IMG/VR virus record: IMGVR_UViG_3300025133_000486
Location: 1 to 28,090 of that record
Length of the DNA stretch: 28,090 bases
Direction: 5' to 3' (one strand)
Origin: a virus
Shown here: one piece after another, positions 1,087 to 27,022 of the stretch
Numbering within the stretch: the first letter of the stretch is position 1
Layout: each line of letters opens with the position of its first letter
Notes under the pieces: model-generated
What the model saw: only the letters and a program-made list of their open reading frames with translations
Told to the model about the DNA's origin: nothing
The model's database searches: none
Translations under genes and position numbers: made by a program

Positions 1087-3737
1087 AGGTTGGCGAGTGC
1101 AGATAGTGCCTGTGCTCGCTGATTTTTTGATATAGCACTTGACCCTTTTTTTGGTTTCTTTTTTGAATTGCTTATTTTCTTTTGCATATCATGTGTTTTT
1201 ATTCCCATAGTAGTCGTGCCTGGATATAATCCAAACTCTGCTCTTAATGCAGAAAATATACTTCGTGGTTTATCTGTAAAAAGAGATTTAAAATAAGGAA
1301 AAAAGCTTCTTCTTAGAATTCTCTCTATTTCAATACTCCCCATTCCCGATAGTTCTTTTACAAATTCATTATTACTTATTCTATCATATTTTCTCATACC
1401 CATTACCCAAGCTGCTGTACTACCTTCATCGGCAAGCATTTTCCAGTATCCCGCAGCAACTCCTAGATTATGTATCTCTACAATATCATTTAATGGGACA
1501 ATGCCAGATGCTCCGACTAGCCCTTTGCCATAATATGCTTCATTACTTTCTTCGTCATCACCAGTTAAAAACTGCTTTAATTGCATTACTCTATCTACAG
1601 TATCATTATTTATATAACTTGTAAAATCTATATTCGATGCAACAGAAACCGCTTCAGTTAGGCCATATAGAGCAAACAATTTAGTTATCCTACTAGCTTC
1701 CTCACCGCTATAGTCACCCGCTTTAAAGGCTCGTGAATAATCTTTTAACATTTGATACTGAAGATCTGCGAAAGAGAATGCGTAATGTTGGAACTGACCT
1801 GCCACTGATCCCGCCTTACTCCCTAATATAGTTGATTTACCAAATTTAGAGTATTCAAAATGAAGTAAGTTAGTCATGCGACTAGCATATGTTCCTGCTG
1901 ACTGCTGCATTTTTAACAAAGCTTCAGGATTTCCTTCAATATTGGAAAATTCTGTTGTATTCTGTAATTGAGTATACCTTTGGTGGTAAGCCACCTTAAA
2001 AGTGCTTCTACGATTTGAGTTTTCAGCCATCTGAGTAAGAATCGCTGATTTCTCTGCGAGCTTGCTTGTTCCTTTGGCTAATTTCTCCATGATAGTATTT
2101 TTATCTCTAAAAGTAAGAATACCTTTTTCCATGTCAATGCCATATCCTAAAAGATCAGTATTGGAAACAGCACCCTCAGTTACAGCTGCAATATCAATAA
2201 ACATTAGTCCTTTTTCTTCTAACTGTTTATTTAGGCCTTCTTTGTATATAGCATTATCATTATACTCTTTATTAGATGCCTTCTCGGCCCCCAACGACCA
2301 GTAAATCTTATTTAAAAGCCTTTGGGTGCTATTTCTTAATGCACCCCTTGTTGACCATCCTAGTTTAGACACAAACTGTAGTGATGTTAATATTCTAGTT
2401 AAGTTTTCCCCTGTATCGGCATCCTCAATTTTTCTACTAGATGAAGCTCTTTCATACATTGATCCCAATATATGAGCGTATGTTTTTGCAGTACTGGCCT
2501 CGGGGGAATTTGGGTTTTTTAGCATTACCCCAGTTAATTTTTTTAATCCAGCAGTAAATGCATGATTTATATGGGAACTATGATTAAATGACGATACTTG
2601 TTCTATGTATTTATTAGCATAAAGCATAGGATTTCTTGAAAAATACTCCATGTCTTCATTTGACCTGGATTGTAGTCTTTTAGAAAGACTTGTATTGATC
2701 TCTTTTACCTCATTAACATACTTATTAAGAGCTGTATCAATATCCTTAGGAGACTTTGCCCTTGAAATCATTTCTGGAAGTTCTATTGATTGCCCCATAA
2801 TATCTAATACATAATGAGGAATGTAACCACCCTCAGTGTTTTCAAGATTTTTTACAACTTCTTTATACTCAGATATTAGTTTATCTGCTGTTTTACTTGT
2901 ATGTCCGTACTTTAATTCTATTGTTTTATTCAGATTGGCTATAGACCGTATTAAATGTACTTTTGATATGTCTTGTACCTTTCTCCACTCAACAGCAGCC
3001 TTATTAATACGATTAATATAATTTTTTTTGTTAGACTCATTTCTGTATTTATATTTTAAGCCCGAATCATTAGATGCCTCTACTCTATCTAAAAAATCTT
3101 GAAAAACAGCACCCTCATTTTTTAAAAAAGATTTCAAGCCGATTAGCTCCTTAGCTGCGCCTATCTTATCTCCGTTTTTCATTGAGATAACGTATTTTTT
3201 CTCCCTCTCATTGAGCTTATTGAATTTATCATTAACTATCTTTTTTCTAGCTCTACTATCTGCGCTGATAGCAAATGTTTTAATATCTGCATCTCCCGTC
3301 GTGGCCATTCCATCAAATTCAAGGATTGCCTGCTTTAATCCCCCCATCATATTATTATAACTAGCCATCATTTTATTAGTAGTATTAGCCCTAAACTCAT
3401 TGCCTTCTACTAGTCTATTCCAAAATTCTCTAGTAACAGGGTTGCTTCTAGATACCGCGAAACCAGGGACAAATGCCCTAAGAAACTTATTAGACAAGAT
3501 TCCAGGACTTTTTAGATCTTTTGATAATCCTTCTATACCTATTTGGAATTTTTTCATATCAATATCCGTAATGTTATTCCCAGCCATAAGGACTTTACCA
3601 GTAGACGCCTCAAAAAGAGCTGTAAATGCAGTTTTATCATCTGTAAGTCCGTATTTCTCAATAGACTTAGAATTTATCCACATGTTTTTTGCTCTGTCTG
3701 TCTCGGTCCAGAGACTTGACCCTTCTAAGCAAGCCAT
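1083..3737 (-). CDS. Putative internal virion / DNA-ejection protein (884 aa)
   Basis: The last gene of the leftward block, 884 residues. The ATG at 3737 follows a GAAGGAAA ribosome binding site and lies 19 bases after the stop of the giant gene. The protein is largely alpha-helical and Lys/Asn/Ser-rich, with no signal peptide. Around residues 454-475 the segment SKLGWSTRGALRNSTQRLL, and around 641-670 GQFQHYAFSFADLQYQM, resemble patterns I know from very large phage ejection and polyvalent proteins. The C terminus is basic (KKISNSKKKPKKG), which could bind DNA. Its position after the giant and the coiled-coil ejection proteins supports a role inside the virion, delivered with the genome. No polymerase or hydrolase catalytic motif is seen. 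The stop (1083-1085) shares a TTAA with the converging gene. A separate structural or scaffolding role remains possible. Confidence 0.62.
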   Translation of the reverse strand: MACLEGSSLWTETDRAKNMWINSKSIEKYGLTDDKTAFTALFEASTGKVLMAGNNITDIDMKKFQIGIEGLSKDLKSPGILSNKFLRAFVPGFAVSRSNPVTREFWNRLVEGNEFRANTTNKMMASYNNMMGGLKQAILEFDGMATTGDADIKTFAISADSRARKKIVNDKFNKLNEREKKYVISMKNGDKIGAAKELIGLKSFLKNEGAVFQDFLDRVEASNDSGLKYKYRNESNKKNYINRINKAAVEWRKVQDISKVHLIRSIANLNKTIELKYGHTSKTADKLISEYKEVVKNLENTEGGYIPHYVLDIMGQSIELPEMISRAKSPKDIDTALNKYVNEVKEINTSLSKRLQSRSNEDMEYFSRNPMLYANKYIEQVSSFNHSSHINHAFTAGLKKLTGVMLKNPNSPEASTAKTYAHILGSMYERASSSRKIEDADTGENLTRILTSLQFVSKLGWSTRGALRNSTQRLLNKIYWSLGAEKASNKEYNDNAIYKEGLNKQLEEKGLMFIDIAAVTEGAVSNTDLLGYGIDMEKGILTFRDKNTIMEKLAKGTSKLAEKSAILTQMAENSNRRSTFKVAYHQRYTQLQNTTEFSNIEGNPEALLKMQQSAGTYASRMTNLLHFEYSKFGKSTILGSKAGSVAGQFQHYAFSFADLQYQMLKDYSRAFKAGDYSGEEASRITKLFALYGLTEAVSVASNIDFTSYINNDTVDRVMQLKQFLTGDDEESNEAYYGKGLVGASGIVPLNDIVEIHNLGVAAGYWKMLADEGSTAAWVMGMRKYDRISNNEFVKELSGMGSIEIERILRRSFFPYFKSLFTDKPRSIFSALRAEFGLYPGTTTMGIKTHDMQKKISNSKKKPKKGSSAISKNQRAQALSALANL
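1093..1128 (+). terminator. Intrinsic terminator for the rightward genes, inside the converging gene
   Basis: Arms GCGAGTGCAG (1093-1102) and CTGTGCTCGC (1110-1119) form a 10-bp stem with a 7-base loop, followed by TGA and six T (1123-1128). Two pairs are G-U in the rightward RNA; in the leftward RNA the same positions are C/A mismatches, so the hairpin favours rightward transcripts. It lies within the last codons of the 884-residue leftward gene, which therefore encodes both a C terminus and an antisense terminator. Confidence 0.8.
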
Positions 3738-3756: not shown

Positions 3757-6700
3757 TTAATTACAGAGAGGTTTCCCGTCTTTCCCAATAGGTGCCGATG
3801 CTCCGTGTTCGTTCTCAAATCCAATTTCATCATTTAATAAATCAAGAATTTTAGTCCCTCTCTTTTGTGGTCTAATTCCAGTAATTCTTCTTTGTTTAAT
3901 AGATTTTCTATCCATTAAAACCTCTCCAATAAGTTGCCCTTCTCCTCCAGATGTACTGAATTGTTTAGTTGAAAGTCCATCAAACACAAGACTGCCTCTG
4001 GCGACCTTAAACAATGCTTTATATTCGTTTTCACCAACTTCATTAATAATATTCTCTTTTATGCGTATTGCAGTCCCAGCATCTATGACTTGACCGTCAA
4101 TTAGCATTTGCTGCATTAACTCAGCGAATTCAGAATTGATACCAGAGCCTATTTCCATATATTCCGATATCTTTTTAAACTCCTCTCTTGATACAAACGG
4201 ACTATTCATAACCTTCTTATTTAAGCTATTAATTAACGCACCCTCAAAATTGGCATCTGCAATTCTCGACATACCTGATTCAAATCCGTTGCCAGCAACA
4301 AGTGCATCATAAAAGCCTCTATGGACTTGAGCAAATTTTTGAATAAATTCCTTTTTGTGAGGCAAGGCACTATAATCATTAAGGAAGTTAAATACGGCCT
4401 TAATAACTGATTTGGATGGAGCTTTAACGGCTGGCATAAAGCCACCTGTTTTTGGAGAGAAATAAAATTGATTTGGGTTCCCACTATGATCAGGTGTCAA
4501 CATAGACATTAAGAAATCAATTCCGTATGATTCCTTCCCATCTGGCAAATTACCAAGAGCTGGTAAAAGATCGGCTTGCTTAAGAGAAGCTGGGACCTCT
4601 TCATATAATTTGTTTACTACATCTTGCAGACCCTTTTCTATCTCATGCCTAACTAAATTCTCATACTTATCCCACTCTTTAACATTACTGTTGTCCATTG
4701 TATCAACCATTAACTTGCGAATCCTGCCTTTTGTCTTCCTCGCGTACTGACCAAACCAGTCCATGTCACCTGTAGCTATCCCAGAATAGTACCCTAGTGT
4801 ACTGTGCGCAAATGCAATTCCATCTATTAAATCGTGTTCCTTTATAGCCTTTAAAATAACAGGGTTCCTAACAGCGACCTCCCCCTTTTTAAGTTCATGT
4901 TTATCTCCAGCATTCCTTAACATTCGTCTTTCCTGCCCAGTCTCAGCATCCTTGATTGCAATCTGCCTGTCGCCAAATACCTCAACCAAGTTATTCCCAT
5001 CTGATTTATACTTCTGAATACTCTGGCCAGGAAGACCTTCTTCTGCAGATACGGTCATTTTATTTAAAAGAAGAGATAGGGCTTTTCTCTTGATTTGAAT
5101 ATTCTCACGATTTACTTGAATAAATGCATCGTCTCGGTTTTCATCAGACTTCATCTGCTCCTTTCTAATTAAGAACTCTGCTGTGCCAATTTGTTCTTCT
5201 ATAGTATTGGCCTGCACAAGAGCATCCTCGGTCTTCTTCGTCTTATAGAAAGCTTCCCACATTTGCTCAAGAATAATAGTTTCCTCAGGTCTGCTTTCTG
5301 TATCTCCTCCACGCAAAGCTTCCGCTAAGGCCTCACCGCGCCTTTCTCCAATAAGCCTATCTAAGGCTGCATTAAAATGGTCTCCACTTGGACTGTAGGT
5401 TTCGCGTACCTGCATCCTATCCCTGGATGCAATCCCCTTTAACGATCTTAAGAATGGATCAGGGCTATCATTAATCGCTTTTGATAATGGTCCCAGTATA
5501 TCATTCATGCTCTTTTTAGTATTACTGTTTTCATAAAATATTTGATTTGCGACTTCTTCATTGAATTTATATTTTATATAATTGTAATAATTATGATTGA
5601 TTCTATCTGGTCTATACTCATCCCTAAAGATCTTAAGAGCAGTGACCATGTCTTTATACCTAGGAGTTTTTGCCTCCCCAGCCTCCCACACATTGCCCTC
5701 ATAACTTAAAAGTCTGCCGAAATCCCCCATAAGTTTTTCAACTATTAGCATATGACCATCTTCTGTTATGCGACTACTAGATCCATCTTTGCTTTTAATA
5801 TAAAAGAACGGCTTATCTGCTATTGTACTTCTATCGCTTCTGTTGTTGCCAAAAAAAGTGTTTCTCTGCCATTGGTTAAAGTTTTTTACATAAAATGGGA
5901 GTGTTTCATAAATATCTACAGCGCCCTGAGTATCAGAAACAAGTCTCTGCATTGCCATATCGTCAAGTTCTTGAAAGACTATTTCTCTTCCATCTCCAAT
6001 ATTTATAGACTTTATCTGCTCAAAAACATTTCTAGCATAAGTTAATTTTCTATGAGTCTTGACGACCTGCCCGAATTTTTTTCTATAATTATTAATTTCC
6101 CCAGAATAGTTCTCCATACTTCTTCTGTCGTATGGATTTAGCTCCAAACCAGCGGGCCTATCTACTGGCAAGGCTTCTTTTACCTGGCCATTAACCTTAT
6201 ATGATTCACGCATAGCGGAAAAAGGAGTATCCATATAAAAATACATTTTATCCGTATCAAAGTCTCTTTGGGCACGCATAGTTAAGTCATACGGATTCAC
6301 CTCCATAATCCCCCCGTCCCGCTTAGATAGAGTTCCCTTCACCTTTAGTAAAATAGCATCATGTGGGCCCGTTCTAGGGGCAGGAAGACCCATTATGCCA
6401 AGCTTTAATACCTTTTTCCCAGTATCACCAGCCTGGAAATTATTTAGAAAATTAAGCACATCTCTATAAGTAGAAATTCCACCTTCCTTCATAGACATTT
6501 CAGCTCTCAATTTTTTAACTGCCCACTCTAGTGCTTCATAATCTGGGATCTTTGATCCTTTTCCTAAAAATTCAAGACCATCCGTTGGTTTCTTAGGGTC
6601 ATACACCCTGCCAGATTTTAAATCATAAACTACGTCTCTTCCATTTGCTTCTAAAATTATACTTATAGTTGATACAGCCTTATGCTTTGGTCTCTTCCCC

Positions 6701-9700
6701 TTACCCCTAGATAGACTTGCCTGTCCGTAATCCGCTATATTATGAATCTTCCTATCTAAGTAGACTTCGGATATATTGGCTTCACCAATTTTAATTTGTT
6801 TATTATTCTCATAAACGGGGATATTTAAGTCCATTGACATGTTACCACGCAATATAGCAGATCCACCTGCATCTGTATGGCCATCGAATATCCCAGCATC
6901 ATCAATATACCGTCTTTTTATCATAGACTCGTACAGGTTATTTGCTATACTAAAGGGAACACCATCCCCCTCTATCCAAATAGACTCAAAAGACGCATTG
7001 TCCGTCTCGACGGAAATTGTTCCATCCTTATTTCCCTTTGTTCTTATAAACGACCTTGCCTCGGCAGATGCAAGAGCAGTGTTCTCGATATTAAAAAACT
7101 GAACATTTATATCGGCAAATTTGTCTATCATATCTGCCCTTGCATATTGATAAATATCTCTTTGAACCTTAGGAGATGTCCAATTACTAAATTGTTTTAA
7201 GATTTTCGCATCATGAGGTTCCCCATATATCGTCCCAGAAAGACTTTGATCCGCCTGCATGCGCATAACCGATTTGTTATTATCAATATTGTCAATCTTT
7301 AATTCATTTATCATGTCATTAAGATTCATACCACTATCTACTTTAGGAATTGCATCATATGGGATAAATTGATTCTCTAGAGATTCATTTGGGTTTATTC
7401 TCTTGGCTTTTTTAGCACCACTAGTAAAGGCTATCATATGAATATCTGGATTTTTTTCAAAAAATGGATCCAATCTAGAATCGTAAAAATAATGAGTTTT
7501 ATTATAGAGTACATGTATGACGCCATTGTTGTCCTTGTAGGAAGACAAACCCACTGGTTTCTGCCCAGATGATTTTCCTATAAGACTAGAATCTCCATTT
7601 TGAAGAAGAATATAATCTAGGTATCTTCGATTAACAGGAGTCCCGCCATTAACATATTCAGCATTAATAGAGTTGCTGTCCTTCAACAACTTGATCATTT
7701 CTTCATAAGCGCCCTTACTGATTTCTTTATTTTTATACATCTCTTTTAATTTGAATTCAGAGACTGATCTATTATCAGTTATTAACCCATTTGAATTCAT
7801 ACCTTTTTCACTAACCATCCCGTCATTAATAACGAATGCATTAGTATACTCCTGGTCCGTAAATTCATTAATTAATTCCCTATGGTAAGCATTATCGCTC
7901 TCTCCATACAATATCTTAGCAAACTCTTTCCTTTCGTTGCTATTCCTTGAGTAGCCCTGGTTTTGAGCAAGTCTCTTATATTTAAAATGCTTTCTTTGGC
8001 CTTTTGAACTTGTGTAGGCATCTTGCAGCCAATCATGGTCTATTCTTTCGCCATATATTGCATTAAATATCGTAAAAAATGCATCATGCACTGATTCTTG
8101 GTCAGATCCCCTACGGCTATTAACAAATTCTTTCATGCTCCCATCTGTATTCTTAAGGGTGTTATAATAAGACTCTAGATTATTAAATAGTTCTTTTGCT
8201 CCTGGTAAGCTCTTTATTGACTTCCTGGTATATTCTTCATCCCTAACTCGCTCAAACCATTTTTTAAAACTTTTTCCCAATGATTCAAAGCCTCTGTCTG
8301 GCAACAATATTGTGATATTTTCATCTATTATAATTGGATAGTGTGCACCACTAATAGTCTGTTCATCTATCGGGATGCCATGAAACATATCCCCAACTCC
8401 TGGTTTTGCGACACCACTGCTCAATGTTTTTATATATTTATTGCCACCTTTTGATAAACTGGCCATAAAGTCTTCATTATAGGTCTGCTGGGAAATATTT
8501 TTTAATGCCCTGGGGTTAGAGTATAAACTTTTTATGCTCCCTTTTTCCATATACTGAGAATCTAATAACATTAAGGGGGTATTACCAAAAACCTCAGTAA
8601 AAACATCAGTTAAGAATCCTTTTGATATCTCGGAATTCTCAAAAATAGCCTTCCCGCTACTTGTGTTCATCGTAACTCTTTTAATGTTAAATCGCCTTTC
8701 GAAAAGATTAGACAAGACCATTATGTCGTCTCTTAACTCACGATTGGGCGTATCAACTCCTGTGAGTTTGATTACTCTATCAACAAAATCTTTCCTAGAT
8801 CCCCCTTTTAACGTCCTTGCGTACAGGGCATATAGAGCATCCGAGTTGGAGTCATATGTTATACCATGCTCAGGGTCAGTAAATTGAAATATATCAGCCC
8901 TTTCAATGCCATGTTTTTCAAAAAACATATCTGGAGTCGTATGAGTTTTTTCCCCTGGAACAATACCTTCTATTTCACGTTGCTCCCTGACGCGCTCAAG
9001 ATTCTGTCTCCTCTCGTCCCAAGATGTCAATACGTCAGATCTATTGGCTACATTTGTGGCGATTTGTTCACGTAAAACACTCAACTCATCCGTTAATCTT
9101 ATGAATTCTTCTTTTGTTTCAGCTCTCTCTAGCTCTTTTAAATAGTCGTAGTATTTTTTATTAGAACCAGCATGAGGCGTTGAGCCCATAAAATCAAGAT
9201 AGGCAGAAATCCTTGTGATTTCCTTTCCTCCTGCGTACGCACTGCGAAACATATTGTATGCATCATTAAACACTCCTATCTTTTCATTCTCAAACTCCAT
9301 CATAGCTCTCACTTCGGACGCATCACTAGATGACATATCAAGGCTAGTGAGAGTCTCCTCGAGAACTGTTTTCCTAGCCTGTGCTCTTTCTATGAACTGC
9401 AAGTGCTCAGTCCCGTTCTTCTCGGTATCTGTTACGAGTTTTTCTTTATTTAAGATGCGATCTGCTGTTCTTATTGATGTAAGCTGCTCGCTTGTTAAAT
9501 GTGTAATATTGAAATCTTTTTTTCTTGCAACAGCCTTATGACTTATCCTACTAAGAACACTCTTGTACGCATCAACATATTCTTGACTTTCGATCTTAGA
9601 CAGAGATGGCATCATTCTATTTACCTGATCGGCACTTATTGATTCAGGAGCCACTAGTCTAACCCCTCTTCCTGCACTATCCTCAGCAACGCTTATAATG

Positions 9701-12624
9701 CCATTCTTCATTAATTTTTTTATAACTAACCCAACATGAGGATCAAGATCCATGCCGTAAGTAGCCTGATCAATTCCATGTGATATTGCTTTTTCAACCC
9801 ATGTGGCCATTCTTGTATCTAACATGTGATGTTCGGGATCAGGCATACCTGCTTTTACAAGCTTTTCTTTTAGTTCAGTGACTTTGCCTGCAGAAATAAC
9901 CACTTTCCTTCCATCAACAGGAGCCCTCTTAGTTGCGCCAATACTCCACAGGTCAAGTGTAAACTGTTGTAATGCCTGTTGTTGCGCAGTAGAGCCTCCC
10001 CAATCATCTGGGAATTCCATTTCAATCTTTAAGGGACTGTCTGTCATTGTCACGTCGTTCCGACTAGAACTATTTGACAACACCTGCTGAACAAGGGATT
10101 TAATTTCACCCGCGTCTACCTTTTCAAGGCCTGGTATCTCCTTGCCCCCTATTACATCAACCACGTTTGCAACATTCTTCTGATAATTAACCTCTCTGGC
10201 CAAGTTCCAAAGCATAGGGTCGTTCAAGTCTGCGGGGATGCCCATAGACTTTCCATATAACTCTTGCCCCAATGTTTGTTCATACATCTTACTCAGTTCG
10301 TCTATTTTATTAATAGACTCATGAGTTAATTCATACTGTAGTCCTTTTTGCTTAGAGTGCTCTATATCCCGCAGTGTGATGATGCCCTCATCCTTAAGAT
10401 TTTCAGTAAGATCTTGAAATTTTCTTATGGCTATCCTCTGATCATCTGTGATATCTAAATGTTTATAATTTAAATTAAAATCGTATAATACTCCCTCATC
10501 AACACTATTTTGCTTATTGGATAGAATATCATGCATCTGTTCAAAAAGCTCATAAGTATTTCTTTGAAACTTAGTTATACTTTTCTGACTCCCGCTAAGT
10601 ACAGCCTGCCTTATATTAGTGCTAGAGTCAAGTCTTCGAGTGTGAGCTGCTGTAGTAAGCTCCTCTGAAACTAGATTCTTAACGCTATCAAGAGCTTTAG
10701 CATGCTCTGCTTTAGTGGAATTCGGATTTAGTGCTAAATTTCTAGATGTCATTACAGCAGTTACTGGGTTTATTAAATCTAACAATTCCCTATTGGTAAG
10801 GGCTGTAACCCCCTTAGGAGTTATAGGTCCGTTACTTTTGTCATAAATAACATTATTATCCATTAGTGTTGTTATGATATTCTCAACATCCTGAATCTGA
10901 TTTCTATTAACCCAATCGGTATATAGATTTCCATCAAACTGCTTTACAAGATCCCCAATATTATGCGAATAGACATTCATCCTGTCTAAGCCTTGTTTAA
11001 TAGCAGTTAATTCACTAGCGTAGTGATACGGTCTCTCACCAAAGTGAAATCCTGTCCTAGGGACTGTGCCTTCAAATACAGGTTTATGTTTTTTTGTTAT
11101 TAAGGCACCAAGGGCGAAATGAAATCCTGTTTCAAGTGGAGATAAGTAATCAAAGGCTCCATCTTCCATAGCATGATAGTTCATTATAGCACTACCCATT
11201 GCCATTCTAGGGAGTGACCCTATTAAATCTCGACCACCTTCTTTAATTAACTTGCTCCACTTGGGGCCATTGAAATCTTTCGCCATATTAATATTGTGTT
11301 GCTTCATAGATGTCTTTAAGGCAGATAGTTGTTCTTTTTTAATGCCGACACCTTTCCTTAGAGATTTCCTTAATACATTTTGACCATTTATATTTAATAA
11401 ATACGATCTATCGTTTTTCATCTCATTGCGAGCAAATGCTTTTGCCTCGTCTAGGGACATCTTATCAATTTTCTTATTAATAGATTTTACATGCTTTCCA
11501 ACGCTAGCCTTAAAAGGATTTAGTATACTATTGTTTACACCCCCTGGTATAAATTTTACTGCCCCGAAAGCTGCACCTGTAATAAGGTGGCTCATAACCT
11601 TGTCAAAATATGTATCATCTGAGAGATCGAGGTCGCCTTTGCCGTATTGGACTGCATCCATAGATGCACCGACTAATCCGAATTGGACAGCCTCCTGAGC
11701 CATTCCACCTAAAACCCGCAGAGCGGGAGTGGCTATTGTACCAGAATAAGCGCCCTGTATGATGCTTTCTAAACTATTAAACGGCTTAGATCCTAGTAAC
11801 TCAATCATATCATCTGACATTTTTAAAATCTGTTTTTCAGTAAGATTTTTTACTCCAGCTTTTGAAAGCTCAGCTGCCAATCTCTCAGGCATAATACTTT
11901 TCATCACATTTCTAGCATTATTTAGATGTTCAACGCTATGTTCTAGCTGATATGCCTTTCCACCGCCCATAATTTTCTGATACCATTTAAGGCCATCCGT
12001 ACTAAACCCAATAACATCATCGGACACTGCTTTAGCAATATTTTGAGCTTCAGACTTTGATAAGGAGCCTCCTACTTTTTGCGTATATTTTAATGTTTCA
12101 GAGTATAATTTACTACCAGCCCCTGCCTGAAGAGCTTTTGTAGTCGGAGATGCTATATCCGCTAGTTTCTTACCTCCAGCAATTGCCTTTGCCTGACTAG
12201 TTCCGCGTACGGTGCGAGTGACAGCACTCATTCCCTTCCCCCATACTCCCATAGGAGCCAGAAATCCAGCAAGTCCTCCTAAGGTGCCCCCAACTCTACC
12301 AAGTGCTGAGTCATTCAACTCCTCCATGGCAGACTCATAAGAGCCCTCATCAATCGCCTTCCATGCCCAGCCAGGTGCCCCGATTAAAGCCGTGTCTACC
12401 CCAGACCAAACAGCATTTGCCGCACCCTCAAGAATGTTTTTAACAACTCCATCATCGTTATAAGCATCATATATAGTTTCGTCTTGCCCGATGAACCCAT
12501 ATCCTTCATCCTCAGATTGGGATTTAAGATTATTATAGTATTCGTCAACCTGGGCGCTTGTTAAATATTGTCCCTTAGCAAGAAACGCGCTTTTAATTCG
12601 CTGTTTTTCGTATAAAGCGTCCAT
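3757..12624 (-). CDS. Giant virion protein with RNA-polymerase-like double-psi barrel motif (2955 aa)
   Basis: A single 8.9-kb frame encoding 2955 residues. The N terminus has hydrophobic, Gly-rich stretches (about 61-90 and 108-135, with GGTLGGLAGF) and further hydrophobic helices near 340-500, as in proteins that enter or cross membranes during genome ejection. Residues 2082-2086 (APRTG) and 2121-2130 (DFDTDKMYFY), with VNP about 10 residues before the latter, match the layout of the second double-psi barrel of two-barrel RNA polymerases, where three Asp (D2121, D2123, D2125) would hold catalytic magnesium. A possible first-barrel segment, GHTDAGGSAIL, is at 1916-1926. No T7-type polymerase motifs were seen. 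The ATG at 12624 lies two bases after the upstream stop without a clear Shine-Dalgarno, suggesting reinitiation. Being a virion protein is inferred from context and size; polymerase activity is inferred from motifs. Confidence 0.66.
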   Translation of the reverse strand: MDALYEKQRIKSAFLAKGQYLTSAQVDEYYNNLKSQSEDEGYGFIGQDETIYDAYNDDGVVKNILEGAANAVWSGVDTALIGAPGWAWKAIDEGSYESAMEELNDSALGRVGGTLGGLAGFLAPMGVWGKGMSAVTRTVRGTSQAKAIAGGKKLADIASPTTKALQAGAGSKLYSETLKYTQKVGGSLSKSEAQNIAKAVSDDVIGFSTDGLKWYQKIMGGGKAYQLEHSVEHLNNARNVMKSIMPERLAAELSKAGVKNLTEKQILKMSDDMIELLGSKPFNSLESIIQGAYSGTIATPALRVLGGMAQEAVQFGLVGASMDAVQYGKGDLDLSDDTYFDKVMSHLITGAAFGAVKFIPGGVNNSILNPFKASVGKHVKSINKKIDKMSLDEAKAFARNEMKNDRSYLLNINGQNVLRKSLRKGVGIKKEQLSALKTSMKQHNINMAKDFNGPKWSKLIKEGGRDLIGSLPRMAMGSAIMNYHAMEDGAFDYLSPLETGFHFALGALITKKHKPVFEGTVPRTGFHFGERPYHYASELTAIKQGLDRMNVYSHNIGDLVKQFDGNLYTDWVNRNQIQDVENIITTLMDNNVIYDKSNGPITPKGVTALTNRELLDLINPVTAVMTSRNLALNPNSTKAEHAKALDSVKNLVSEELTTAAHTRRLDSSTNIRQAVLSGSQKSITKFQRNTYELFEQMHDILSNKQNSVDEGVLYDFNLNYKHLDITDDQRIAIRKFQDLTENLKDEGIITLRDIEHSKQKGLQYELTHESINKIDELSKMYEQTLGQELYGKSMGIPADLNDPMLWNLAREVNYQKNVANVVDVIGGKEIPGLEKVDAGEIKSLVQQVLSNSSSRNDVTMTDSPLKIEMEFPDDWGGSTAQQQALQQFTLDLWSIGATKRAPVDGRKVVISAGKVTELKEKLVKAGMPDPEHHMLDTRMATWVEKAISHGIDQATYGMDLDPHVGLVIKKLMKNGIISVAEDSAGRGVRLVAPESISADQVNRMMPSLSKIESQEYVDAYKSVLSRISHKAVARKKDFNITHLTSEQLTSIRTADRILNKEKLVTDTEKNGTEHLQFIERAQARKTVLEETLTSLDMSSSDASEVRAMMEFENEKIGVFNDAYNMFRSAYAGGKEITRISAYLDFMGSTPHAGSNKKYYDYLKELERAETKEEFIRLTDELSVLREQIATNVANRSDVLTSWDERRQNLERVREQREIEGIVPGEKTHTTPDMFFEKHGIERADIFQFTDPEHGITYDSNSDALYALYARTLKGGSRKDFVDRVIKLTGVDTPNRELRDDIMVLSNLFERRFNIKRVTMNTSSGKAIFENSEISKGFLTDVFTEVFGNTPLMLLDSQYMEKGSIKSLYSNPRALKNISQQTYNEDFMASLSKGGNKYIKTLSSGVAKPGVGDMFHGIPIDEQTISGAHYPIIIDENITILLPDRGFESLGKSFKKWFERVRDEEYTRKSIKSLPGAKELFNNLESYYNTLKNTDGSMKEFVNSRRGSDQESVHDAFFTIFNAIYGERIDHDWLQDAYTSSKGQRKHFKYKRLAQNQGYSRNSNERKEFAKILYGESDNAYHRELINEFTDQEYTNAFVINDGMVSEKGMNSNGLITDNRSVSEFKLKEMYKNKEISKGAYEEMIKLLKDSNSINAEYVNGGTPVNRRYLDYILLQNGDSSLIGKSSGQKPVGLSSYKDNNGVIHVLYNKTHYFYDSRLDPFFEKNPDIHMIAFTSGAKKAKRINPNESLENQFIPYDAIPKVDSGMNLNDMINELKIDNIDNNKSVMRMQADQSLSGTIYGEPHDAKILKQFSNWTSPKVQRDIYQYARADMIDKFADINVQFFNIENTALASAEARSFIRTKGNKDGTISVETDNASFESIWIEGDGVPFSIANNLYESMIKRRYIDDAGIFDGHTDAGGSAILRGNMSMDLNIPVYENNKQIKIGEANISEVYLDRKIHNIADYGQASLSRGKGKRPKHKAVSTISIILEANGRDVVYDLKSGRVYDPKKPTDGLEFLGKGSKIPDYEALEWAVKKLRAEMSMKEGGISTYRDVLNFLNNFQAGDTGKKVLKLGIMGLPAPRTGPHDAILLKVKGTLSKRDGGIMEVNPYDLTMRAQRDFDTDKMYFYMDTPFSAMRESYKVNGQVKEALPVDRPAGLELNPYDRRSMENYSGEINNYRKKFGQVVKTHRKLTYARNVFEQIKSINIGDGREIVFQELDDMAMQRLVSDTQGAVDIYETLPFYVKNFNQWQRNTFFGNNRSDRSTIADKPFFYIKSKDGSSSRITEDGHMLIVEKLMGDFGRLLSYEGNVWEAGEAKTPRYKDMVTALKIFRDEYRPDRINHNYYNYIKYKFNEEVANQIFYENSNTKKSMNDILGPLSKAINDSPDPFLRSLKGIASRDRMQVRETYSPSGDHFNAALDRLIGERRGEALAEALRGGDTESRPEETIILEQMWEAFYKTKKTEDALVQANTIEEQIGTAEFLIRKEQMKSDENRDDAFIQVNRENIQIKRKALSLLLNKMTVSAEEGLPGQSIQKYKSDGNNLVEVFGDRQIAIKDAETGQERRMLRNAGDKHELKKGEVAVRNPVILKAIKEHDLIDGIAFAHSTLGYYSGIATGDMDWFGQYARKTKGRIRKLMVDTMDNSNVKEWDKYENLVRHEIEKGLQDVVNKLYEEVPASLKQADLLPALGNLPDGKESYGIDFLMSMLTPDHSGNPNQFYFSPKTGGFMPAVKAPSKSVIKAVFNFLNDYSALPHKKEFIQKFAQVHRGFYDALVAGNGFESGMSRIADANFEGALINSLNKKVMNSPFVSREEFKKISEYMEIGSGINSEFAELMQQMLIDGQVIDAGTAIRIKENIINEVGENEYKALFKVARGSLVFDGLSTKQFSTSGGEGQLIGEVLMDRKSIKQRRITGIRPQKRGTKILDLLNDEIGFENEHGASAPIGKDGKPLCN
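6205..6402 (-). other. Candidate catalytic barrel (DxDxD) of the giant protein, residues about 2075-2140
   Basis: The coding segment for the proposed polymerase active site. The DFDTD codons are at 6250-6264. In bacterial RNA polymerase beta' the order is RAPTLHR, a run of strands, HP, then NADFDGDQM and a following Pro. Here the order is APRTG, KVKG, GGIMEVNP, then RDFDTDKM, YFY and a following Pro, with nine residues between NP and DFDTD against eight in beta'. From memory, crAss-like phage polymerases carry DFDxDK with a preceding RxP-TxG segment. Gly is replaced by Thr at the fourth loop position. Confidence 0.6.
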
Positions 12625-12626
12625 AA

Positions 12627-14270
12627 TTATTTATTAAGGATTTCTAACGCTCTTTTGAACTCATCATCGGAGATTTGTTTTGATCCCAACAATAAATCAG
12701 AATTAAGAACAGTGCTTAGGTACGTACTATGGACTTTTTCATGTGCCTTTATCTGAGTTCCAACAGTTCCCAGTTCTTTAAGTAAAATTTTATTATTATA
12801 CACACCCGTCTCTATCCAGGCTTCAGCATCAAGTAGGTCATTAGCTCCGTCTATCTCATCAGCGTGGGCCTTGATATACGCTATCCTACCATCAACTTTT
12901 GACCATTTCTTTTTCACCCTAGATAAGCCTTTCTGTTCATCAATCCAGGTATTGATATCTTGCTGATTAACATTAATAAACGCCTGGAGCTTATCTCCTT
13001 TCTTCATTATGTCCGATATCACATCTGAGCTGAATCTATAATCAGCAATCAATTCTTCTGAGCTGCCCATAGATTGAGTTGTAATTAGATCTTTTATGTC
13101 ATCAGCTATCCGATCGTATGTGGGATTGTTTCTAATGTAAATATCAAATTTAGAATCAAAGTTATTATCAACCCCTGTCGCCAATAACTCATATTCAGAC
13201 ATTAACGTAACAAGTGGCATAATATCGGTACCATCCTTAAAGGCAACTTTTGACAAAACTTTCATACCTATGATCTTTTGAGACATGTTAAGACTTGCTT
13301 TTAACCGATCCGACGACTCAATGGTTTTTTCCTGCTTTGCTTTATCAAGTGCCCAATCTTCATCATCATATCTATCCTGCTCATTATTGTGCTCCATTCT
13401 TCTCATGGAAGTTTCTAGTTTTGCTTGCTCGTAAGCTTCATCTAGCATCTTATTTTGAGTGTCAATTCGCTCTACCTCGTTTGCACTAATGGCTAACGCG
13501 TAATTACGGGCTGTCTTTTCATCTTCCTTCTCAAATGGTAAATAATTGTTTATTATGCCCTGGTGTACATTTTGAAGGCGTTGAGCTTCGTTTGAAAGAA
13601 CCTTAGAGTTATTTTCTAATTTCTGTTTAGTCTCCAGGTTATCATAAATTGCCTGAGCTACGTTTATATCTATTACCCCTCTATCATATTTCTGCTGTAG
13701 TTCCTGCGGTAGACTATCTATTTGGATCTGAGTTAGGTCTCCTTCTAAAACTGCCTTTCTAAGGTCTTTTGATTCCCTAGCACCGTACTCTTTCGACAAT
13801 AGCCCTTGTATAAAAGGGTCATTGTAATTATAGTCAGGCCCCCCAGGCGTCTGGAGCTCGCTAATACTTAATATTCCATCTTTATTTATATCCACGTGAT
13901 CAAATAATTGGGTACCCTTATTGAATTCAGCAAGACTCTCTTGAATCTTATCGCCCCTACGATTAGAATTAATGATCTCACTATTTATGTCATCTAGGTT
14001 TTTAATTGCGATGTTCTTTGCATTCCGTGTTGTATCAGCCCCATCTAAGGTATCTAGACTATCTATAGTTAATCCAGCTTGTATGGCTTGATCTTCCAAT
14101 GCTATTACCCGAGCTCTCTCCTGCTCTAATCCCCTAAGCCCAGATTCAATATACATATTCTCTCTATTGAATTCCATTGCGTCACGAGCTCGTATATTTT
14201 TATTCTTCTCTTGTTGATCTGACCTGATTAGGGAAATAAGTCCACTTAAAGCTTGTAGTGCTTCGCTCAT
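12627..14270 (-). CDS. Coiled-coil internal virion protein with an EF-hand loop (547 aa)
   Basis: A 547-residue, strongly charged, mostly helical protein; long Glu/Lys/Gln/Arg-rich stretches (about 20-110 and 205-330) predict coiled coils, and there is no membrane segment. Residues 127-138 (DINKDGILSISE, bases 13857-13892) are a canonical 12-residue EF-hand calcium loop: Asp1, Asn3, Asp5, Gly6, a hydrophobic at 8 and Glu12. The start ATG overlaps the upstream stop (ATGA) and follows GAGAGGAAG. It sits immediately before the giant gene and after two smaller putative ejection proteins, the position where podophages place internal core or ejection proteins. That role is inference from place and composition. 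The stop is two bases before the giant's ATG, implying translational coupling. Confidence 0.6.
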   Translation of the reverse strand: MSEALQALSGLISLIRSDQQEKNKNIRARDAMEFNRENMYIESGLRGLEQERARVIALEDQAIQAGLTIDSLDTLDGADTTRNAKNIAIKNLDDINSEIINSNRRGDKIQESLAEFNKGTQLFDHVDINKDGILSISELQTPGGPDYNYNDPFIQGLLSKEYGARESKDLRKAVLEGDLTQIQIDSLPQELQQKYDRGVIDINVAQAIYDNLETKQKLENNSKVLSNEAQRLQNVHQGIINNYLPFEKEDEKTARNYALAISANEVERIDTQNKMLDEAYEQAKLETSMRRMEHNNEQDRYDDEDWALDKAKQEKTIESSDRLKASLNMSQKIIGMKVLSKVAFKDGTDIMPLVTLMSEYELLATGVDNNFDSKFDIYIRNNPTYDRIADDIKDLITTQSMGSSEELIADYRFSSDVISDIMKKGDKLQAFINVNQQDINTWIDEQKGLSRVKKKWSKVDGRIAYIKAHADEIDGANDLLDAEAWIETGVYNNKILLKELGTVGTQIKAHEKVHSTYLSTVLNSDLLLGSKQISDDEFKRALEILNK

Positions 14271-22216: not shown

Positions 22217-23731
22217 TTAACTGTTGACTGAAGACACTTTCTTCCAGATAGCGTGAGATTCGGGCATGCTGAATTCCATACCAGCTTCGGTAAGAATTTG
22301 GTCAACCCGACGGTCAACACCACTGTTTTCAAGTGTCTGTACACCTACATAAATGGAGGTGTCGCGATTAAGGCCATTACCTACGAGAGGTCGATAAGCG
22401 ACATGCTTTAGATCGACTCCCATCATAGATACATTAGTGCCATCCAAGTGAATGTTTCTCATCAGATTCATTCCACCATAAGGTGTAGAAATCTGTGTCA
22501 CATCAAGACCAAGAACTTTCTTGCGACCAGTTACTGCAAGGTCGGCCCGAAATTGGCCATCTATGCCGATGTTATTAGAGAAATAACCACCCAGCTTATG
22601 TAACCAGTTGTATACTTCTGTTGAACAGAAGAATACTGTACCAGAACTAGCTGAGTAGCGAGGATCTAACAGTGCAGACATATCATCAAGGAAGTTATCT
22701 GCGTGCTTGTCAGTCGCCCATTCAAAAGCATTACCGTGGCTTAAAACCCAATCAACTGCACCTTGTGTAGTGCGGTAAGTAGAGTTTTGAGATCCAAATA
22801 GGAGTGATTGCTCAATATCCCATTTATGCTCGATAAGCTTCTCTTTCCAGATACGTGCCCACTCATTGCCTTCAAACTTTAATGACGTTGCACGATCAGT
22901 GTTAGTCATCGACATTGTAGTTTTGAAGATTTGAGTTTGTCCGTAGCTAGTTGAGAAAGGTTGGTCTTTCCAAGTCTCTGGATAACCAGTTCCTTTTTCA
23001 AACACAGAACCAACAACATAACACTTATATGGTGCTAATGCTTCCTCACTTTGAGTCGCTGCGGCAGTATCACTGTCAGCTACGCTCATTCCAGCTGGTT
23101 CACCCATGTAGAAGCTACCTGCGTCAACACTTTTAACTACCTTACCTGTTACATTAACGTAATTTCCAGAATCTGCTACACTGGATATCTTTATAACTTG
23201 GTAGTCAGAAACTAACTTATCATTAGATGCGTTTGAAGCTGTTGCTACAGGAACTTTAATTAACTGATCAACCATGAAAAATTCTGGCTTAGTACCAGCT
23301 CCCCCAGATTGATAAGTTGTATCTTGGCCATACACATTAGTCTTATTGCCTGCACTAGCATAGTCAGTACCAAATTGACCATACCATGTATCTTCTGCAG
23401 CATCTTGCGAATTTGCATTTGTAGAACAATTAGTGTCAAAACTGCTACCATGATGTGCTAAATAAGCATAACGCTTATGCCATGAGCCACGTCTCTCAGT
23501 AAATTTAAACTGAGGGTCATCCGTGGGTTTTTTCGCTAGTTTACTTACTAAACGAAAGAATGGATCTTGGGACACAGCGAGCTCCGATACACGACTTCCA
23601 AAGTCGTATTTTCTACGAAGATCACCAGTGTTAGGATCAGATCCATCATACCCGCTAGGGGCACCAGGGGCTGCACCATCAGTAAAAGTACCGATATTAG
23701 AGCCCGATGAATATAGAATGTCTTCTGGCAT
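22217..23731 (-). CDS. Major capsid protein (504 aa)
   Basis: A 504-residue protein directly after portal and scaffold genes, with a strong AAAGGAG ribosome site. Features fit an HK97-fold capsid protein: a polar, Gly-rich N-terminal arm (1-60), a long spine-helix region (TMSMTNTDRATSLKFEGNEW, EKLIEHKWDIEQSLLFGS around 275-310), and a beta-rich C-terminal domain (VLGLDVTQISTPYGGMNL). The RTTQGAVDWVLS segment near 315-330 recalls SU10/DUF5309-type major capsid proteins. There is no protease gene in the window, and the N terminus is not obviously cleaved. A Gly/Ser/Asp-rich region around 90-260 could be an insertion domain. The capsid call is strong from order and composition; subfamily is tentative. 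Confidence 0.82.
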   Translation of the reverse strand: MPEDILYSSGSNIGTFTDGAAPGAPSGYDGSDPNTGDLRRKYDFGSRVSELAVSQDPFFRLVSKLAKKPTDDPQFKFTERRGSWHKRYAYLAHHGSSFDTNCSTNANSQDAAEDTWYGQFGTDYASAGNKTNVYGQDTTYQSGGAGTKPEFFMVDQLIKVPVATASNASNDKLVSDYQVIKISSVADSGNYVNVTGKVVKSVDAGSFYMGEPAGMSVADSDTAAATQSEEALAPYKCYVVGSVFEKGTGYPETWKDQPFSTSYGQTQIFKTTMSMTNTDRATSLKFEGNEWARIWKEKLIEHKWDIEQSLLFGSQNSTYRTTQGAVDWVLSHGNAFEWATDKHADNFLDDMSALLDPRYSASSGTVFFCSTEVYNWLHKLGGYFSNNIGIDGQFRADLAVTGRKKVLGLDVTQISTPYGGMNLMRNIHLDGTNVSMMGVDLKHVAYRPLVGNGLNRDTSIYVGVQTLENSGVDRRVDQILTEAGMEFSMPESHAIWKKVSSVNS

Positions 23732-23750
23732 TCCAAACTCCTTTCTTTAA

Positions 23751-23784
23751 GTTCGGAATAGCGCCAAATAAGGCCTATCCGAAC
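23751..23784 (-). other. Hairpin between scaffold and capsid genes
   Basis: Inverted repeat GTTCGG/CCGAAC, ATAG/CTAT and GCC/GGC gives a 13-bp stem with two single-base bulges (23757, 23762) and a six-base loop (23766-23771). It covers the scaffold stop codon (23775-23777) and ends about 16 bases before the capsid ribosome site. There is no U tract, so it is not a terminator. It may be an RNA processing site, a 5' stabiliser of capsid mRNA, or a brake on scaffold relative to capsid translation. Confidence 0.55.
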
Positions 23785-24698
23785 AGGTTATTTAAATCAG
23801 GATCCAGGGAAAGTATGTTATCAAATACAGAATCATCTGCAGATTTAACTACCTTTCCTGGGCTGTTCACTCCACTGGCGCTTGTTGGCATATTTCGGAC
23901 ATTTTTCATCTGATTCAGCATATCTTGCTTAGTAGCATTTGCTGTGTTTTTTGCCGCTTTATCACGATTAACGAGATAATAAATATCATCAATAGTCATT
24001 TTCCGACCTTTGGCATCAGCCATCATGCCGTCAAAATCATCTTGACTCATGTCCATTTTCTCTCTGAATTCATTCTCCTGCTTTGATCGCTGTGCCTTTG
24101 CTTGCATAGCTTGCGCGTTCTGACGTTCACCTTGAAGCATTTGCCCAACTCTTTGTTGAACTATGCCGTCTACATGAGCATTCATTACTTTTGCAGAATC
24201 TGAATCAGGATCTGATACAGCTTCACTGGCGTCAAACATAAAGTTTTCATCAAGATTTAACTTATCCTGAATCGTCTTTGTTGGTTCACCGCCATTAACC
24301 AGATAGTCTCGAACGTGGTCAACAAGCCCACTATCATTTTTCATTGCTTCAAGAACAGGAACAAAAGGTTCCAGGTCTTTCAGCTCATCCTTAAGTTTCA
24401 CAGCTTCCCGACTTGAATCGGAATACCGCTTCTTATAAGGATTATCGTCGTTGTCCCACGTGTTAGAGCCACCGCTTTCTGTAGAGTGAGTTACCTGTTC
24501 GGGGTCACTCGCGACTTGATGGGTTACCTCAGTGGTATCGTCAAGGATTCCTCCATTGACTGATTTATCAAGTGCTTCAAAAAAATCATCACCTTCTGAG
24601 CCTGTTCCTTCAGGTAGACTGTCAAATGATTCAAAGTCATTTAACGGTTTTTCCTGAACTTCAGGGTTACTTTCAGTGTTTTCGGAAGAAGCTACCAT
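23775..24698 (-). CDS. Scaffolding protein (307 aa)
   Basis: A 307-residue, very acidic, low-complexity N-terminal region (1-90, rich in Glu, Asp, Ser) is followed by KKRYSDSSREAVKLKDEL and a long helical, Gln/Met/Lys-rich segment (about 170-270, GERQNAQAMQAKAQRSKQE) and a disordered tail ending DPDLNNLFG. This is the composition of podovirus scaffolds (P22 gp8 / T7 gp9 type), which line the procapsid and leave before DNA packaging. It sits between portal and capsid genes, as expected. A good AGGAG site precedes the ATG. No protease motif is visible. Confidence 0.78.
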   Translation of the reverse strand: MVASSENTESNPEVQEKPLNDFESFDSLPEGTGSEGDDFFEALDKSVNGGILDDTTEVTHQVASDPEQVTHSTESGGSNTWDNDDNPYKKRYSDSSREAVKLKDELKDLEPFVPVLEAMKNDSGLVDHVRDYLVNGGEPTKTIQDKLNLDENFMFDASEAVSDPDSDSAKVMNAHVDGIVQQRVGQMLQGERQNAQAMQAKAQRSKQENEFREKMDMSQDDFDGMMADAKGRKMTIDDIYYLVNRDKAAKNTANATKQDMLNQMKNVRNMPTSASGVNSPGKVVKSADDSVFDNILSLDPDLNNLFG

Positions 24699-24724
24699 AC
24701 TTAATCTCCTAAGTTAGTTGTATA

Positions 24725-27022
24725 TTATTCTTTTTTATTGGCGTTTGCCAAATTGTTTCGTGTTTTCTGTAACTCAAGGTCCATCTTGTCCTTAACGGCA
24801 TCAGCTTCATTGGACATTACATTCCTTAGGAGCTTCTGCTTACCTTCAGTTTCAGTGTATTGCTTATCTGTCTTAGACTTCGCCTGTTCTTTGTGTTTTG
24901 TGATTTCCATCTCAGCCTGCATTACTTTACCTTTAATGCCTGCCTGTACTAATTGTCTCTCAAGCGTTTCAATCGTTCCTTCCTTATCTTTCAAGACTTC
25001 GTCCATCTGCTCGATCTGACCGCGCATCTGAGCATATAAGCTCTTACGCTTTGCAATTTGTTCTTTATCTTTAATATCTGTTTCAGCAAGGACGGCAAGA
25101 TCATCTACAATGCCTAGTTGCATCATATCCTTCAATTCCGATAGGTATGCCCACCTATTTATAGGCAATGTAGAACCAGAAACCACTCGTACATCAAATT
25201 TAGCAGTCTCATAGTCCATGCTCTTGCCGATAGCCTCACCCATATCGTTATAAAGGGGTACATTTAGTTCAACCTCTTTCTCTTGCTGTAACGCACTGGG
25301 TTGAACGATTCTAAATCTTTTGTTAGCAGTGTATACATTTTGAGAGAATTGCATTACAACCTTACCTAGTTGCCTAAGCGCAGGTTCAATGCTATGTTTC
25401 ATCCATTGTTTAATTCTCCTGGTACCATACTCGTCTAGCGCAAGCATACCACGAAATGTCTCATGCTGTTGTTGAGTATCCCCCTGCATACTTGAATAAA
25501 TACCAGCTAAATATTCCATATCCTGTTTACCTTCTTGAACAATGCCGAAAAATGCATTAGATAGAGGAGCTGGTAATATGGGAGTAGGAGCTTCCGATCC
25601 AACGCGCTTCGGAAGTAATGCGCCTGGTGCGGATGAATATTTTTCCCACACTTCTTCATCAATAGCGCCTTCATCATATAACCATCTAAGCGACGAACCC
25701 AATGATGCATTATGCACCATAATTTGATGACTTTTGTTTATTTCTCTCTGTTTTCCGATTAGTGGGGAAACTGCAGATATGGGAAATGGTGTCCCTGTCC
25801 ATTTATAATGGAATGGAACAATGGGATACTCAGTTACATTATCTGGTAAGACCTTTTCATACAAGAACTGATCACCCGCTACGCAACTTTGCTTTATGCG
25901 AGTACCCTTAAATGGAATGCTCTCTATCACATTTTTAGCAAAATTCTCATCTTCCATTATGATTTTAAACTCTTTCTCGCTAATAACTTGGTTCTCAATC
26001 TTAGACGCTTCCTGCTGTAACTTGCTCATGCACTCCTGGCTAAATCCTTGAAGTTGAGCATCCATCTGCTCCTTTGCCTTTGTCAGTTCGAGTTGCATTC
26101 TTTCTGGTAGCATCTTACCTGCTTGTACTTGTTCTTGCATAGATGCTTCTTGCTCTCGAAACTGCACCTCAAGTTCCTGTTGCATCTCCTTTACCATTAC
26201 ATCACATTGCTTCTTCATCTCACTTAATTCTTTTTTAGTGGGAGGCATGCGGTAAAATACATTTACATATGGAACTTTGATCTTTTCGTACATTTCAAAA
26301 AACTCAACCATGTCATCCTGAGTCCCATCAGACCTAACTGTCATAGTATTATTATTATCTTTCGGACTAAATAGAGATTGGTCATTATCCCACATTGCTC
26401 TCTGGGAGTAATCATCATTAGTTTGCACTGTACTAGACCTCTTGATCTTTATTTTATAATCTGGAAATAGTTTCTCAAGATGATTTTTGGGAAGAACTTT
26501 CTTAATTATGACATAAGCAGCATCTCTGAATAGCATGTCTCTGCTTTTCGGATCTGGATATACATCAAAAGGATCTGGTTGTTTTAGAGTGACCTCGCCC
26601 ATTCCGTTATCCATATCAGGATCTACATCAACCAATACATAACCTACTGATTTGGTAATTGAATCATTAATAGCATTTGCATACAAGGTGCCCCCATCCG
26701 ATAAATGCCATATATAGTCTGCAATATCAGAAAATACCGCAGCTACACCAGAATCACTCCCTTCGACGCCTATTGCTTGCCACCTAGGGCTATTTGCTGT
26801 TGCATAAAAATTTAACATTTCGACTACAGGTAAGATCCTATTAATCGTGAATGTGGGCATACCTTGCTCTTCAAGAGATGTCTTTTCTTTTTCCGACAAT
26901 TGAGCATCATTGGAAAATTCATACCCAACTGTATTGACCCTCTCCCACTGCTGTCTTTCATATATGTCAGCACCCTGGTTAAATATTTCTCTTATTATAT
27001 CTGCTTTTTTCTTCCTAGCCAT
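24725..27022 (-). CDS. Portal protein, P22-like (765 aa)
   Basis: A 765-residue portal: the start of the structural order portal-scaffold-capsid. The N-terminal half has the P22-type portal pattern: QGMPTFTINRILPVVEML (53-70), SPRWQAIGVEG (78-88), SITKSVGYVLVDVDPD (121-136), KQPDPFDVYPDPKSRDMLFRDAAYVI (147-172). Residues about 262-348 are a Gln/Glu/Met-rich coiled coil inserted in the body, and the last 115 residues form another long coiled coil (from about 650) consistent with a C-terminal barrel like that of P22 gp1. It is expected as a dodecamer at one capsid vertex through which DNA enters and leaves. The start has AGGT eight bases upstream and the gene overlaps nothing. Confidence 0.85.
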   Translation of the reverse strand: MARKKKADIIREIFNQGADIYERQQWERVNTVGYEFSNDAQLSEKEKTSLEEQGMPTFTINRILPVVEMLNFYATANSPRWQAIGVEGSDSGVAAVFSDIADYIWHLSDGGTLYANAINDSITKSVGYVLVDVDPDMDNGMGEVTLKQPDPFDVYPDPKSRDMLFRDAAYVIIKKVLPKNHLEKLFPDYKIKIKRSSTVQTNDDYSQRAMWDNDQSLFSPKDNNNTMTVRSDGTQDDMVEFFEMYEKIKVPYVNVFYRMPPTKKELSEMKKQCDVMVKEMQQELEVQFREQEASMQEQVQAGKMLPERMQLELTKAKEQMDAQLQGFSQECMSKLQQEASKIENQVISEKEFKIIMEDENFAKNVIESIPFKGTRIKQSCVAGDQFLYEKVLPDNVTEYPIVPFHYKWTGTPFPISAVSPLIGKQREINKSHQIMVHNASLGSSLRWLYDEGAIDEEVWEKYSSAPGALLPKRVGSEAPTPILPAPLSNAFFGIVQEGKQDMEYLAGIYSSMQGDTQQQHETFRGMLALDEYGTRRIKQWMKHSIEPALRQLGKVVMQFSQNVYTANKRFRIVQPSALQQEKEVELNVPLYNDMGEAIGKSMDYETAKFDVRVVSGSTLPINRWAYLSELKDMMQLGIVDDLAVLAETDIKDKEQIAKRKSLYAQMRGQIEQMDEVLKDKEGTIETLERQLVQAGIKGKVMQAEMEITKHKEQAKSKTDKQYTETEGKQKLLRNVMSNEADAVKDKMDLELQKTRNNLANANKKE

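Follow-up and report, generated by a model that had tools for sequence, protein, structure and literature searches.

The giant gene and its neighbours

The window analysed here is the whole of a 28,090-base IMG/VR virus record (IMGVR_UViG_3300025133_000486) from an uncultured phage. As listed in Table 1, an ORF for a giant protein of 2955 residues was found on the minus strand, and a second contig, L002, encodes an identical protein. Since the same-strand neighbours of this gene include the portal and the major head protein genes, it was assigned to a structural block. The three proteins encoded upstream of it may be ejection proteins, judging from their position. All three lack cysteine, like the injected proteins of N4 and P23-45. 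The largest of them has one EF-hand-like calcium loop, DINKDGILSISE, at 13851-13910 on the minus strand (PF00036, E = 7e-4, under the curated cut-off). Also in the structural block, the minus-strand region 18474-19355 encodes a zinc-ribbon-like start and then a metallophosphoesterase-like part (PHROG 7339, DNA repair exonuclease); the structural genes of phage phi14:2 likewise include a metallophosphoesterase gene.

Table 1. Features of the window, with positions, strand, and basis of assignment
Feature	Positions	Strand	Basis or remark
Downstream protein, 884 aa	1083..3737	-	Adjoins the giant across the family; probable counterpart of crAss gp49/gp76
C3, sole cysteine of the downstream protein (MAC...)	3729..3731	-	Family Cys counts
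Giant protein, 2955 aa	3757..12624	-	ORF and relatives; conserved N-terminal part, predicted RNA polymerase core, and C-terminal part ending GKPLCN
C2954, penultimate residue and sole cysteine of the giant	3763..3765	-	Family Cys counts
Predicted RNA polymerase core region, residues 1576-2461	5242..7899	-	BLAST to L200, whose equivalent region was folded and matched 6vr4 and QDE-1
Predicted second double-psi barrel (DPBB-B) segment, residues 2076-2131	6232..6399	-	HHalign segment to crAss-like RNAP
DFDTDK, residues 2121-2126, predicted catalytic Mg-binding Asp triad	6247..6264	-	Asp invariant in 47/47 aligned cores
APRTG, residues 2082-2086	6367..6381	-	Counterpart of crAss RIPTEG and family RQPRN / RTPKAG
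Predicted first double-psi barrel (DPBB-A), residues 1658-1742	7399..7653	-	Alignment; collinear HHalign segment to crAss DPBB-A
N-terminal region common to the giant family, residues 63-588	10861..12438	-	BLAST
Possible ejection proteins, 547, 166, and 200 aa	12627..15369	-	Upstream of the giant; function from position only
Major head protein	22217-23731	-	PHROG 1328, E 5e-12
307-aa protein between major head protein and portal	within 22217..27022	-	Same-strand structural block
Portal	24725-27022	-	PHROG 156, E 6e-59

Within the giant, APRTG is followed by KVKG, VNP, DFDTDKMYFY (residues 2121-2130), and Pro 2134. The distance from the catalytic motif to the C-terminus is 834 residues, as against 819 in the phi14:2 polymerase.

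A family of giants in uncultured viruses

No match to the giant or its relatives was found in Pfam, PHROGs, PDB sequences, or an annotated phage collection. Relatives were collected by way of the portal, which led to 80 related loci whose whole records were searched with the giant, and then by stepwise profile scans of IMG/VR. The giant was matched in six records among those of the 80 loci, mostly at the motif, and the motif region is among the best-conserved parts held in common with the giants of other phages. The N-terminal region was matched in L110, L196, L105, L111, and others at 20-25% identity (best E = 1.9e-11 in a small set), and residues 1576-2201 were matched in L200 at 22% identity (E = 3e-13, again in a small set). 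The IMG/VR scans yielded about 46 related giants of 2930-3210 residues in several groups. This is a large unnamed family of two-barrel polymerase giants from uncultured viruses, carrying no annotation. Two scans of genome contigs found no relative, so that no host is assigned.

The motif takes the form DxDGDH (G), DYDMDK (M), D[FY]D[FML]DK after RQPRN (F), or PQDADFDLDKS after LRTPKAG and the like (group R), with DYDFDE in L095 and DFDTDK in the window. Thus the fourth position varies among G, M, F, L, and T, and the three Asp residues are constant. The columns P2083, N2110, D2113, D2121, D2123, and D2125 are invariant in all 47 aligned cores, across which the first-barrel lysines K1689, K1709, and K1738 are near-invariant. 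The HExxH zincin motif was not found in the giants.

The window giant was placed near the root of the tree, between groups; I distrust this position because its terminal branch is long (2.91 changes per column). Another locus, L122 (record G001), has a portal 74% identical to that of the window and carries a giant, of which 1871 residues are seen. This giant is unmatched by the window giant at E 0.001 and is matched by the family profile at E 7e-42. From this case, the giants seem to diverge or to be swapped much faster than the portals.

Sequence link to crAss-like RNA polymerases

A reference profile was made from 11 crAss-like RNA polymerases, and the controls were 120 shuffles, the other 300-residue tiles of the giants, and P23-45 gp96. 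Residues 1951-2250 of the window giant were aligned with this profile exactly at the catalytic loop (HHalign score 35.2, E = 9e-4). This score exceeds the best of the 120 shuffles (23.1) and that of every other tile; gp96, a proven polymerase serving as the positive control, scored 28.3, below the window giant. The family profile matched the crAss enzymes in three separate segments that keep their order: barrel A including its lysines, one segment in the middle, and barrel B. The E-values ranged from 0.0009 to 0.054 at barrel B and from 0.0014 to 0.11 at barrel A. Single HHalign E-values of this kind are modest and pairwise, and it is the same order of segments that makes the homology convincing. 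The sequence profiles matched no solved polymerase among the PDB sequences.

The 11 crAss-like polymerases have patterns such as GYRIPTEGK...TGSDFD[IV]D[KS], whose fourth loop position is I or V, so a residue other than glycine is normal there. The motif alone is insufficient as evidence for a polymerase, since a near-identical peptide, DADFDLDK, is present in the unrelated Wza protein. PDB 9r60 and its relatives (Wza, an export protein) have DVIKQQDADFDLDK, which is close to the catalytic peptide of the family, presumably by chance.

A sequence-only reading of this DNA had noticed an RNA-polymerase-type DxDxD loop in the 2955-residue protein, and the ORF, the invariant columns in the 47 cores, and the HHalign score set against its controls bear this out. 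The crAss pattern that it named, DFDxDK after RxP-T.G, is indeed seen in the 11 polymerases, and both the invariance of the three Asp residues in 47 of 47 homologous cores and the profile-profile match to crAss-like RNAP at the catalytic loop came out as it anticipated. It was mistaken in taking the change of the loop Gly to Thr as the sign of an undescribed subgroup, given the I/V of the crAss-like enzymes and the G, M, F, L, or T of the family. For the fused membrane-active domain that it proposed, no clear signal was found in the giant (best 19-residue hydropathy, 1.19).

The 884-residue downstream protein was aligned with gp49/gp76-like proteins at HHalign E = 0.0013 over 293 columns, with other pairings at about 0.02-0.36. 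An upstream module was also compared with crAss gp47/gp78; at E = 0.019 only, I do not claim it as a counterpart.

Predicted fold of the polymerase core

With 16 sequences, AlphaFold2 modelled the window core at a pLDDT of 41.7, and this model was not used. For the core of L200, which is 22% identical to that of the window, 47 sequences gave a pLDDT of 82.8 and a pTM of 0.85. The fold of the window core is transferred from this relative through the alignment at 22% identity and should be regarded as a prediction. The expectation of the sequence-only reading that two double-psi barrels would appear stood for the confident L200 model; in the window giant, the two barrels are placed by alignment only.

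In a Foldseek search of the PDB with the L200 model, the sole match below E 0.001 was the phi14:2 virion RNAP (6vr4, E = 4.4e-7); the match after it stood at 2.2e-2, and QDE-1 follows 6vr4. VIA-align superposed 595 residues of the model on 6vr4 (Z = 10.3, rmsd 4.9 A) and gave Z values of 13.9 and 13.7 for the QDE-1 / RDR cellular polymerases, so that QDE-1 stands above 6vr4 by Z. The non-virion RNAP of P23-45 (gp64, 8f72) was found at Z = 10.4, and P23-45 gp96 was not among the listed matches, an absence from which nothing follows. The model also matches Pol II. Among predicted viral structures (BFVD), there were 30 matches below E 0.001, and most of the named ones belong to crAss-like phages. 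A single-subunit polymerase of the T7/N4 type was considered and rejected, as the giants had no Pfam match and the L200 core model matches two-barrel enzymes. The T7-type family PF00940 had no match in 24 records, but it had none in the control genomes either.

Cysteines at the facing termini

As noted in Table 1, the giant and the downstream protein each have a single cysteine, and the two lie at the facing ends. Is this common in the family? A cysteine was found in the last seven residues of 46 of the 46 giants whose C-terminus is present; these giants are related and do not amount to 46 independent trials, and the rule holds in every group found. In 45 of them, this is the sole cysteine of the sequenced part, and the remaining one has one more. 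All of the readable downstream proteins (43 of 43) have exactly one cysteine, which lies within the first 11 residues. The residues around the terminal cysteine of the giants are unrelated (GKPLCN, DGRCG, NGKGCLY, ELFKCLDL, and DAIDKLCR). Since the flanking residues differ so widely, the position of the cysteine is apparently kept by selection. Terminal cysteines that face each other where the polymerase giant ends and the next protein begins were seen in the window and loci L102-L212, and in L130 and L245-L256.

The same rule was found in crAss-like phages, where 15 of the 15 testable junctions between separate polypeptides, in 11 phages, agreed with it. In phi14:2, the only cysteine of the upstream module is its final residue, that of the downstream module is residue 3, and the polymerase carries a pair, at residue 3 and at the penultimate position. 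The 1-2-1 layout recurs in crAss001, with one additional internal cysteine in gp50. For DAC15, cr6_1, and Dulem virus 41, the expectation was set before counting, and five of five junctions agreed. Carjivirus and Rudgehvirus have the polymerase and the downstream module in one chain, and cr50_1 and Fpv1 have the upstream module and the polymerase in one chain. Such fused junctions are without the cysteines, and the junction that is still unfused retains them. In crAss002 (L248), the rule is masked by the annotated start of gp33, a fused polymerase with an internal MSC at residue 33; this start is probably 32 codons too early, and a start at MSC fits the rule. Several crAss modules (e.g. those of cr6_1, DAC15, crAss002, Carjivirus, and cr50_1) have internal cysteines, and the rule concerns only the termini there. 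N4 gp50 and P23-45 gp96 are single chains for which no such partner is known, and both are free of cysteine. No report of the cysteine rule was found in the searchable literature, which consisted of openly licensed papers, mostly at title level.

Discussion

The giant resembles the crAss-like virion RNAPs (phi14:2 gp66, PDB 6vr4; crAss001 gp50) in the single-chain two-barrel fold of the top Foldseek match, in having RxP followed by DxDxDK, in the stretch of about 820 residues from the motif to the C-terminus, in modules adjoining structural genes, and in the terminal-cysteine rule. It differs from them in that the identity by structure is only about 9% and that the N-terminal module and the polymerase form one chain of 2955 residues. 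The phages themselves may differ as well: the records seen here are 83 kb or shorter. A tblastn search with the window portal matched one non-crAss record and no crAss phage, and no terminase was identified in the window. The QDE-1 / RDR cellular polymerases belong to the same fold class, but they are eukaryotic RNA-interference enzymes and are not fused to phage modules. The virion RNA polymerase of N4, gp50, is likewise a very large injected polymerase (3500 residues); it has a T7-type fold and, unlike the giant, is cysteine-free. Thermus phage P23-45 gp96 (PMC10770324) also has a two-barrel polymerase within a giant virion protein. In contrast to the giant, gp96 joins its polymerase, which occupies the N-terminal quarter of 5002 residues, to the tail tape measure protein; it has no cysteine at all and matches the crAss enzymes more weakly by sequence (28.3 versus 35.2).

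The conserved catalytic Asp and Lys residues, the collinear matches to both barrels, and the confident model of a relative whose top match is the phi14:2 polymerase all lead to the polymerase reading. The presence of a two-barrel RNA polymerase in the giant, as the sequence-only reading had proposed, is strongly supported, and the giant is a probable virion protein. Very likely, then, the giant belongs to the crAss/QDE-1 clade of DNA-dependent RNA polymerases, with both barrels in a single chain and a long module fused to the N-terminus, and is packaged in the virion, injected, and used to transcribe the first genes. Gene order and homology suggest that it would be packaged in the virion and ejected with the phage DNA, after which it would transcribe the first phage genes. 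Catalysis, the DNA template, packaging, injection, and the early-gene role are extended by homology from phi14:2, whose polymerase accompanies the DNA into the cell and is responsible for early transcription (PMC7886860). Polymerase fusion to a tape measure protein is known from P23-45 (PMC10770324), and the homologous modules gp47, gp49, and gp50 of crAss001 were found in virions by mass spectrometry (PMC10172136).

A degenerate two-barrel fold without RNA synthesis, serving a purely structural or ejection function, would be in keeping with the very fast divergence (2.91 changes per column on the terminal branch of the window) and with the lack of the loop glycine in most members. It is nevertheless highly improbable, because the Asp triad, the Lys residues, and the Pro, N, and D columns are kept or nearly so where identity is about 20% elsewhere, which indicates selection on the active site, and because activity is known for crAss-like enzymes that have I or V in this place of the loop (phi14:2, cited in PMC7886860). 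The giant might instead be a non-virion polymerase made after infection and not packaged, since P23-45 has such an enzyme (gp64) alongside its virion enzyme (PMC10770324). This is very unlikely for a part of a 3000-residue chain that lies in a structural block, where the modules are ordered as in crAss virions and bear the same cysteine signature.

What might the terminal cysteines do? The cysteine rule suggests, as its simplest reading at the sequence level, a covalent head-to-tail chain. The lone C-terminal cysteine of the giant would pair with the lone N-terminal cysteine of the next protein, the linked proteins would be threaded through the tail head-to-tail as one chain, and reduction in the host cytoplasm would release them. 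I lean slightly towards this disulfide chain for the injected polymerase modules of both the crAss phages and the giant family. In the crAss001 virion, disulfides are described in the portal-vertex dimer and in the tail hubs and rings; these passages of the atlas deal with tail and portal-vertex proteins and not with the gp47, gp49, and gp50 modules (PMC10172136).

It is quite conceivable, on the other hand, that the terminal cysteines serve both proteins in another way, for instance as a site for metal or lipid or as a dock for a partner that both share. The cytoplasm is reducing at assembly, and no phage thioredoxin (PF00085) was found in 26 records of the family, the control being good; both points also count against the disulfide step. 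Such roles would leave it unexplained that the cysteines lie exactly at the facing ends across a gene boundary and are absent where the boundary is fused, and that a middle module has two terminal cysteines and the end modules have one each; moreover, a single chain would usually need more than one cysteine to form a metal site. The alternation of split and fused forms in crAss-like phages would also allow the pattern to be a functionless remnant of gene fission from one long cysteine-poor protein. I regard this as most improbable, since such a remnant would not persist in 46 of 46 giants with unrelated flanking residues.

The giants bring a broad family of probable virion RNA polymerases into a clade whose known members come mainly from crAss-like phages and from RNA interference in eukaryotes. 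The cysteine rule, common to both groups of phages, offers a testable answer to how very large proteins may cross a narrow tail in order and arrive working. If the disulfide chain is true, the same modules would be linked interchangeably, either by fusion of their genes or by coupling through cysteines.
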